A stretch of 34,193 nt of DNA, taken from assembly GCA_003153015.1 (NCBI GenBank), contig PMBS01000270.1, positions 12,062 to 46,254 of the forward strand. The letters run 5' to 3'. Position 1 is the stretch's first letter. The number at the start of each line of letters is the position of its first letter. The position numbers and the translations under genes are program-made. Origin of the DNA: Myxococcales bacterium. GTDB taxonomy: Bacteria > Myxococcota_A > Polyangia > Fen-1088. Positions 1,964-4,174 of this stretch are shown here, one piece after another. The notes beneath the pieces were generated by a model, which was not told the DNA's origin, made no database searches, and worked only from the letters and a program-made list of their open reading frames with translations.

Positions 1964-4174
1964 GTGGCGATGTTCTACCAACTGCGCATCATTCCGCTCC
2001 TACCCTTGCTGGGCGCTGCTTACCTTATCCTGTTTGGCCGGCACCACAGCCGCAGGGCGGTTCACCGCATCGCTTGCCTAGCCGTGGGTGCTGCTTTCCT
2101 GGTCGCGGCCGACGCGTTCTTTTTCTGGTTTCCCATTCTCGTCCAATCGAACGGCGTGACGGATCTGGTGGGGACCTGGTTCGCCAGCGGCGATCTGCAG
2201 GTGGACCTGGTCCTGCGCATGGATGCGCTGTCAGGCCTCATGTGCCTGGTGGTCAGCTTCGTGGGCACGCTGATTCACATCTACTCGACCGGCTACATGG
2301 CTCATGATGAGGATTACGCGCGTTTCTTCGCGTACCTCAATCTCTTCTGTGGGGCCATGCTGCTCCTGGTTCTGGGTGACAGCCTGCCGGTGATGTTCAT
2401 CGGCTGGGAGGGCGTGGGTCTGTGTAGCTACCTGCTCATCGGTTTCTGGTACGGCGAGACGGCCAATGCCAGCGCGGGCAAGAAGGCATTCATCACCAAT
2501 CGGGTGGGCGACCTGGGCTTCCTCATCGGCATGTTTCTGCTCTTCCGCGCTGCCGGCACGCTCGACATTCCTCTTCTGGTTGACACCGCCCGCGCAGGCA
2601 GCCCGAGCCTGACAGCCACCCTGTGGTGGGGACAGCCGGTGGCTTTCTGGGCAGCGCTGTTTCTGTTCATGGGCGCGGTGGGTAAGTCAGCGCAGATCCC
2701 GCTTTACGTCTGGCTGCCCGACGCCATGGCGGGCCCCACGCCGGTCTCCGCACTGATTCACGCAGCCACCATGGTCACTGCCGGCGTGTACATGGTGGCG
2801 CGGCTGGGCGCGCTCTATCTGCTGGCCCCGGCGGCGCTGGCCATCGTGGCGGGGGTGGGCGCGCTGACGGCGCTTCTCGCAGCAGTGATCGCTCTTGGGC
2901 AGAACGACTTCAAGAAGGTGCTGGCCTACTCCACCATCAGTCAGCTCGGGTTCATGTTTGTGGGCGTGGGCACGGGCAATTTCGCGGGCGGCATCTTCCA
3001 CCTCTTTACCCACGCCTTTTTCAAAGCCGGCCTTTTCCTCTGCGCCGGCTCGGTCATGCACGCCATGGCCGGCTCCGGTGACATCACCCGCATGGGCGGT
3101 CTGGCGCGCAAGCTGCCTTGGACCACCTGGGTATTCCGGGTTTGCGGGCTGGCCATTTGTGGGGTGCCGATTTTCTCCGGGTTCTTTTCCAAAGACGCGA
3201 TCGTCGCGGGCGCCTTTGCCACCGCGGTGTTTGGCCCGCGGCTGCACTGGGTCGGCCCGACCGTGGGCGCGGGCCTGCTGGCCGCTGCCTTGGGCACGGC
3301 GTTCTACATGTCGCGGCTTTACTACTTGGTCTTCACAGGTGAATGCCGGGCTGACCTGAACACGCGCGAGCACTTGCACGAATCGTCGGTCGAGATGGTG
3401 GGGCCGATGGTGGTGCTGGGCCTGGGCGCTCTGCTGGCCGGGGTGGTGGGCCTGCCACCTGCGGTGAGCAGATCGCACGGCGATCTTGTCGGCCATTGGC
3501 TGGCGGACGCGGTCGGTCCTGCTCTGGAAGTTTCGCGCGGCCTGCAATGGCGGGTGATGGCGTTTTCGACGGCGATTGCCCTTGCTGGCATCGGCTTGGC
3601 GTGGCGGTTCTTCGGCGGCGGTGTGCGCGAGCCAGCGCGCCGCTTCGTCACGACGTGGCCGCACCTCACGTCCGCGGTGCGCGGCAAGTTCTTCGTCGAC
3701 GAGATCTACCACGCACTGGTGGTCTGCCCACTGCGTGGTCTGTCGCGGGCATTCTTCTTGGTCGTCGATCGCATCCTCATCGACAAGTTGCTGGTGGGTG
3801 GCTGGACGGTTCTGGTCGACACGGCCGGGCGTCTCTTGCGCATGCTGCAGGTGGGTGATGTGCAGCGCTACCTAGCCATCTTCGCCATCGGGTTGGCCGC
3901 ACTGGTCTACGTGATGGCTCGTCCCGCCGAACCTTCTGAGGTGAAGGTTCGCATCGAAGGCCGCAGCGCCAGGGTCGAGCTGGGCGAAGGCGTTGCGGAA
4001 AAGCTCGACTATGGCTTCGACTTCGATGGCGACGGCCAAGAGGATCGTTCGGGCGCGGCTGCCAGCGCGAACTGGCTCTACCCCCAGCCCGGACACTACC
4101 AATTGCGAGTTCGTATCACGGATCCGCGCTGGAACACCTCGCGCACGATTGAACGGACGATCGACATCCAGTAG
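1964..4174 (+). CDS. nuoL: NADH-quinone oxidoreductase subunit L with extra C-terminal domain
   Basis: NuoL is the distal antiporter-like, proton-pumping subunit of complex I. The core shows FIGWEGVGLCSYLLIGFWY with the essential membrane glutamate (Glu149), followed by GKSAQIPLYVWLPDAMAGPT and the helix-breaking HAATMVTAGVYM region. The product is 736 residues if the GTG at 1964 is used, or 734 from the ATG at 1970, which is longer than the common 610-690. The excess is a soluble tail after the last membrane helix (from about residue 650). It holds DFDGDGQED, then YPQPGHYQLRVRITDP, a pattern like a PKD/immunoglobulin-like or calcium-binding extracellular domain. By NuoL topology the tail would face the periplasm; that placement is inference. 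It starts 1 base after nuoK and ends 3 bases before nuoM. Confidence 0.96.
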   Translation: MAMFYQLRIIPLLPLLGAAYLILFGRHHSRRAVHRIACLAVGAAFLVAADAFFFWFPILVQSNGVTDLVGTWFASGDLQVDLVLRMDALSGLMCLVVSFVGTLIHIYSTGYMAHDEDYARFFAYLNLFCGAMLLLVLGDSLPVMFIGWEGVGLCSYLLIGFWYGETANASAGKKAFITNRVGDLGFLIGMFLLFRAAGTLDIPLLVDTARAGSPSLTATLWWGQPVAFWAALFLFMGAVGKSAQIPLYVWLPDAMAGPTPVSALIHAATMVTAGVYMVARLGALYLLAPAALAIVAGVGALTALLAAVIALGQNDFKKVLAYSTISQLGFMFVGVGTGNFAGGIFHLFTHAFFKAGLFLCAGSVMHAMAGSGDITRMGGLARKLPWTTWVFRVCGLAICGVPIFSGFFSKDAIVAGAFATAVFGPRLHWVGPTVGAGLLAAALGTAFYMSRLYYLVFTGECRADLNTREHLHESSVEMVGPMVVLGLGALLAGVVGLPPAVSRSHGDLVGHWLADAVGPALEVSRGLQWRVMAFSTAIALAGIGLAWRFFGGGVREPARRFVTTWPHLTSAVRGKFFVDEIYHALVVCPLRGLSRAFFLVVDRILIDKLLVGGWTVLVDTAGRLLRMLQVGDVQRYLAIFAIGLAALVYVMARPAEPSEVKVRIEGRSARVELGEGVAEKLDYGFDFDGDGQEDRSGAAASANWLYPQPGHYQLRVRITDPRWNTSRTIERTIDIQ

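Follow-up and report, generated by a model that had tools for sequence, protein, structure and literature searches.

The window analysed here, a 34,193-nucleotide stretch of DNA from a Myxococcales bacterium, carries nuoJ, nuoK, nuoL, nuoM and nuoN in that order (Table 1), with nuoL between nuoK and nuoM, in keeping with its assignment to NuoL; names for the four other genes came from inspection by eye and from blastp comparison with the loci of the genome scan described below. The NuoL protein matches the NCBIfam model PRK06590 over residues 7–651 with 660.5 bits, against a cut-off of 556, and TIGR01974 over residues 9–651 with 642.3 bits, against a cut-off of 407.5. When its full-length model was compared with solved chains, all 50 matches listed were subunits of complex I or relatives of these, with Z values of 45.6–53.5. 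In sequence and in predicted fold, residues 7–651 are an ordinary NuoL of the NuoL/Nqo12/ND5 family; pLDDT in the model is low within the last transmembrane helix, TM16, and immediately ahead of it (block means of about 53–72). The genome of the window holds one full NuoL and four further matches that are 29–32% identical. Elsewhere in the window, positions 19278–28498 hold frames that by eye resemble a type I restriction-modification set, with methylase, specificity and restriction subunits and an ATP-binding-type frame between them.

Table 1. Genes and features of the nuoL region, in window coordinates.
Feature	Position	Strand	Basis
nuoK, expected neighbour of TM16	1663..1962	+	frame, blastp
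nuoL, complex I antiporter-like subunit L; 736 aa from a GTG start, PKD-like domain at the C-terminus	1964..4174	+	reading frame, PRK06590, model match to solved NuoL/ND5-type chains
Long lateral amphipathic helix region, residues 556–628	3629..3847	+	helices in full-length model; lateral-helix identity by homology
Last transmembrane helix TM16, residues 634–651	3863..3916	+	full-length model
Short linker, about 8 residues (652–659)	3917..3940	+	TM16-to-first-strand gap in model
PKD-like beta-sandwich domain, seven predicted strands, residues 660–735	3941..4168	+	models, structure comparison, sequence profiles
DFDGDGQED loop, residues 686–694; PKD WDFGDG turn plus one extra residue; candidate Ca2+ loop	4019..4045	+	alignment of tails
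YPQPGHY, residues 706–712; second PKD signature	4079..4099	+	alignment; signature per PMC4356367
TDPRW, residues 719–723	4118..4132	+	frame reading
Asp720 of ITD, PKD VxD position	4121..4123	+	invariant in 25 aligned tails
nuoM, start codon 3 bases past nuoL stop	4178..5812	+	frame
nuoN, 490 aa, expected neighbour of TM16	5812..7284	+	frame, blastp

The reading frame continues for 85 residues (652–736) beyond the last helix of NuoL. An earlier sequence-only reading had drawn attention to this hydrophilic tail and to its DFDGDGQED, Y-x-x-x-G-x-Y (YPQPGHY) and TDPRW motifs, all of which lie in the NuoL frame where it had placed them, and had proposed a PKD- or calcium-binding-type beta domain, to be checked by structure prediction. 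That prediction drew on 25 aligned tails, the window's own and those of 24 among the 35 tail-bearing loci from the genome scan. Folded alone, the tail gave a compact beta sandwich with a mean pLDDT of 86.9 and a pTM of 0.76, not a foldless extension, and among solved folds PKD domains come closest to it. With Foldseek, the top three solved chains were the PKD1 domains of PrtV and Epp, two Vibrio proteases (E 9e-5 to 2e-4); these were the sole matches at E≤0.001, and a collagenase PKD domain came next. VIA-align returned Z values of about 9 alike for PKD, cytokine-receptor and fibronectin III domains and so does not choose between PKD and fibronectin III. The sequence decides for PKD: the profile of the 25 tails matched ColH collagenase (E 8.7e-7) and human PKD1 (E 5.2e-5) among solved chains, and PF00801 and PF18911 each found matches in 14 of the 25 tails at E≤0.1, the strongest reaching about 1e-10. 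Taken alone, the window tail scores 21.2 bits against Pfam PKD, under the cut-off of 23.5, and its best solved match, also a PKD domain, is weak (E 0.017). When 10 other tails from the class were scanned against Pfam PKD, two passed the cut-off (L103, L128), four fell below it (L138, L142, L149, L150) and four had no PKD match (L107, L120, L145, L152). The predicted model of the tail has the PKD beta-sandwich fold, and as modelled the tail is a PKD-type (Ig-like) domain joined to TM16 by a short linker. By a crude projection, linker length in 55 relatives has a median of 9 and a range of −29 to 20.

Both parts of the PKD signature, a (W/F)DFGDG turn and Y...GxYxVxLxVxD, are found in the tail, as FDFDGDG, one residue longer in the turn, and as YPQPGHYQLRVRITD, aligned to 6aem and 4l9d. 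The first, fifth and sixth residues of the loop (D1, D5, G6) are invariant across the 25 aligned tails, and DxxxDG occurs in 33 of the 35 tail-bearing scan loci, one of the others being unread at that point (L004) and one being without it (L026). The fuller DxDxDGxxD-type loop is found in 29 of these 35 loci, in 22 of the 25 aligned tails and in 40 of the 55 profile-matching tails of the class, as compared with 0.07% of shuffled tails. Integrin and thrombospondin loops of the same pattern bind Ca2+, and to judge by its residues binding of Ca2+ by this loop is plausible. That the domain would use it to tune complex I to envelope calcium is quite improbable, in spite of how widely the loop is kept, since the full loop is missing from 15 of the 55 class tails, with a short DxGDG-type turn in its place in three, and since the PKD turn alone accounts for D1, D5 and G6. 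The second PKD signature, to which YPQPGHY and ITD belong, is described in the available sections of PMC4356367, which also place the Ca2+ site of the collagenase (M9B) PKD domain in an Asp pair, DxD, before strand C and in the Asp of VxD. A site of this type was considered and rejected: by motif register, not superposition, the pair positions are occupied by E675 and V677, and only Asp720 is kept. The excerpted text of PMC11522691 reports that Paracoccus complex I depends on Ca2+ for both catalysis and stability, which would favour a calcium role, though the ion held responsible there lies in NDUFS2.

The distribution of the tail was followed in two sets of genomes. The genome scan, from which the best 80 of 143 NuoL loci were kept, gave 35 loci with a tail of at least 52 residues from residue 650 on (that of L004 being interrupted by unread bases), 43 with just 3–12 residues from the same point, and two cut at contig ends. 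The tail-bearing loci are labelled Myxococcales, Myxococcota, Kofleriaceae, Nannocystineae, Deltaproteobacteria, Proteobacteria and uncultured delta or Myxococcales bacteria; the labels Myxococcota and Deltaproteobacteria are also met among tail-less loci. The window's own class is probably Polyangia, under which NCBI places Kofleriaceae. Within the window's own class, a NuoL match at E≤1e-60 was found in 185 of 240 genomes; the 69 analysed from these comprise the 29 top matches apart from that of the window (L086–L114) and 40 chosen to spread over families (L115–L154). The tail profile matches 55 of the 69 at E≤1e-3 (28 of the 29 best and 27 of the 40 family-spread, 67 having a searchable stretch), as against none of 1320 shuffled tails; some of the 55 come from the same genomes as the profile, so those matches hold by construction. 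The 14 misses comprise one sequence cut by its contig (L099), two with little or no tail (L115, L122), six from one family with a different tail of 61–121 residues that begins NPxV and does not match the tail profile (L116–L121), and five with tails of 108–188 residues, some PKD-like by eye (L139, L146, L147, L148, L152). Such recurrence, in the search of Myxococcota that the earlier reading had called for, is contrary to the absence from relatives by which it would have recognised a random extension.

The 20 NuoLs of other classes of the phylum, taken from the matches listed, all end no more than a few residues past the helix, and second NuoL copies within the class lack the tail in the three readable cases (L185, L186, L187), a fourth (L188) being cut at a contig end. 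These three copies are 41–43% identical to the window NuoL and end straight after TM16. Their sister copies (L100, L125, L131) carry the tail, as does L189, the main NuoL copy of its genome. Every tail among the NuoLs analysed belongs either to the window's own class or to a scan locus with a Myxococcota-type label. Several families of the class have longer tails of about 190–290 residues (L134–L138, L141–L146), in which a PKD-like start (for example GYEYRWD..SDG) and end (for example VEVRNAFGN) flank an insert that is about 100 residues long or longer; in the three that were scanned (L138, L142, L145) the insert matched no Pfam family. The tail of L107, which has the turn IDWDGDGKFDE, matches the Pfam DNA-mimic protein family DMP12 at E 0.0005, below the family cut-off, and this match is probably due to chance.

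An artefact of frame or assembly is ruled out, as the frame runs from NuoL into the tail with no intervening stop codon and the fused tail recurs in 35 of 80 scan loci and in many families. A random extension is likewise ruled out, by purifying selection together with conservation. In nine close pairs drawn from the window and L001, L002, L003, L005 and L010, dN/dS was 0.18–0.34 for the tail and 0.09–0.16 for the body (residues 1–574), the tail value being 1.6–2.8 times that of the body; in seven further pairs, in which the proportion of synonymous changes reached up to 0.65, the values were 0.28–0.67 and 0.13–0.38. The tail is thus constrained, less so than the body. Tail and body identities are correlated (Mantel rho 0.56 over 1431 pairs, with 500 permutations peaking at 0.15), as is expected from vertical inheritance of the fusion. 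Within the window's own genome, which is 87% complete, two other frames exceed the PKD_4 cut-off, and a recent copy of the tail from another PKD gene was not found, the next match of the tail profile having an E of 0.23.

These rates also bear on whether the tail need have a function. A PKD domain might have been fused once in an ancestor within the class and kept as a folded, harmless accretion with no specific partner, and both the faster evolution of the tail and its loss or replacement in L115–L122 would agree with this. We consider such neutral accretion unlikely given the purifying selection and the presence of the tail in 55 of 69 class NuoLs from many families; the invariant residues of turn and strands also speak against it, though they may merely keep the fold.

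Sixteen membrane helices were assigned to the NuoL model. With the tail excluded, the loops on the side of the lateral helix contain 24 lysines and arginines, 13 of them in the lateral-helix loop itself, and those of the opposite side contain 7. In complex I the lateral helix lies on the cytoplasmic side. As TM16 spans from this cytoplasmic helix to the periplasm, the domain would by homology be periplasmic, which agrees with the earlier proposal of an external addition to complex I. The linker of about 8 residues means that the domain must remain near TM16, and the contact with the cell wall that had also been proposed is unlikely on this account. A tether from complex I to the cell wall, through peptidoglycan or some other glycan, would find some encouragement in Foldseek matches that include surface glycan-binding proteins, and in weak matches of 2 of the 25 tails to a penicillin-binding-protein C-terminal family (best E 0.0077); with a linker this short and a domain of 80 residues held near the membrane, we regard it as highly improbable.

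In the sections available of the review PMC8762328, the lateral helix is described as leading back from TMH15, at the tip, to TMH16, which adjoins ND2 and ND4L. This published topology rules out a location of the domain at the distal tip, and with TM16 placed by homology against NuoN and NuoK the domain is expected at mid-arm on the periplasmic face. The same sections state that NDUFA11 lies next to TMH16 and helps to stabilise the association of the two pump modules; this role is described as reduced in mammals, where NDUFA11 makes the only interface between complexes I and III within the membrane.

When NuoJ, NuoK, NuoM and NuoN of tail-bearing and tail-less loci were compared, three small internal insertions (NuoN 56–59, NuoN 269–273 and NuoM 410–423) and two C-terminal ones were found, in a comparison that is confounded by phylogeny, counts the contig-cut loci L045 and L057 as tail-less and joins three neighbouring runs into the NuoM insertion. 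By homology the three internal insertions would lie on the periplasmic side, for which the excerpts of the published work give support at the NuoN TM2–3 loop alone. When hydropathy was scanned along NuoM and NuoN the segments came out broken, and the scan does not by itself settle their topology. The C-terminus of NuoM (5640–5812) is basic and proline-rich and extends about 57 residues past the last hydrophobic segment.

We suggest that the domain may be a built-in periplasmic clamp that locks the lateral helix of NuoL onto the proximal pump modules, a reading by analogy to which we assign a probability of roughly 40%. The domain would pack onto periplasmic loops of NuoN, NuoM and NuoK/NuoJ; once packed, it would lock the far end of the lateral helix to the proximal pump modules, and this may stabilise or time the assembly of the membrane arm. 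At the same place such a clamp would have its analogue in eukaryotic NDUFA11, joined in yeast by an extra ND5 helix. The suggestion builds on the PKD fold and its absence from the 20 other-class NuoLs and the 43 short-ended scan loci, on purifying selection, co-divergence with the body and the short linker, on the placement of TMH16 and NDUFA11 in the available text of PMC8762328, and on the insertions in NuoN and NuoM that mark tail-bearing loci. The accessible part of one E. coli study (PMC3274701) reports that deletion of NuoL TM16 left about 40% of complex I, which was fragile and had negligible quinone reductase activity; we count this in favour of a clamp, yet it bears on anchorage and not on the PKD domain. 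Against a clamp we count the 80–85% of activity that, as cited in the same text, another group obtained with similar truncations. The domain is also dispensable, as the tail is scant or missing in L115 and L122 and a different one takes its place in L116–L121; the ratio of tail to body dN/dS is more than a tight conserved interface predicts; and the insertions are few and phylogeny-confounded, while the count of basic residues depends largely on the lateral-helix loop.

The position of the domain would also suit a docking site for an envelope or respiratory partner, such as complex III, alternative complex III or a periplasmic accessory protein, and the domain would then be a supercomplex handle at an NDUFA11-like position. 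The membrane interface that mammalian NDUFA11 makes beside TMH16, as given in the portion of PMC8762328 cited above, lends this some weight, and the faster evolution of the tail is what a surface tracking a changing partner could show. We judge docking somewhat unlikely.

Both parts of this protein are known, and their fusion is described nowhere in the literature searched. The available text of a survey of prokaryotic complex I (PMC12361115) mentions NuoL once and does not contain the term Myxococc. With NuoL/Nqo12/ND5 proteins the window protein shares the body described above and differs in its 85 extra residues, which as modelled form a domain where the 20 NuoLs of other classes end at TM16; among 40 solved relatives at E≤1e-40 none aligns to the tail, the single stretch reported ending by query residue 654. 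With PKD domains (PF00801, PF18911; PrtV PKD1, 4l9d; ColH/ColG PKD, 4jgu/4aqo) the tail shares the predicted fold, the WDFGDG-type turn and the Y...GxYxVxLxVxD signature, but its DFDGDG turn is longer by one residue, the collagenase Ca2+ DxD pair is absent, and the protein that carries it is a core respiratory subunit. NDUFA11 and TMH17 of yeast ND5, as described in the published excerpts, occupy the same expected neighbourhood by TM16 of ND5/NuoL; these are membrane helices, not PKD domains, so that the analogy is one of function only and no homology to the NuoL tail is claimed. Paracoccus complex I likewise has lineage-specific periplasmic additions, on ND2, ND4 and ND5, but in the excerpted text of PMC11522691 these are hairpins or a largely disordered insert, whereas the NuoL tail is predicted to be a folded C-terminal domain.

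Bacterial complex I is usually viewed as a minimal machine of 14 subunits, with added parts being mostly mitochondrial. It is possible, and we offer it tentatively, that the window's own class evolved an accessory module of complex I by fusion of a PKD domain to the end of a core pump subunit, convergent in both location and role with the clamp and supercomplex contact of mitochondrial NDUFA11, and that some families enlarged it to about 190–290 residues by an insert within the PKD domain. The finding concerns a predicted folded domain that a core proton-pumping subunit carries across many families of a single class and that is expected to lie where eukaryotes have a clamp and supercomplex contact. 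If the suggestion is true, the class would amount to a separate experiment of evolution on why the long lateral helix needs anchoring.
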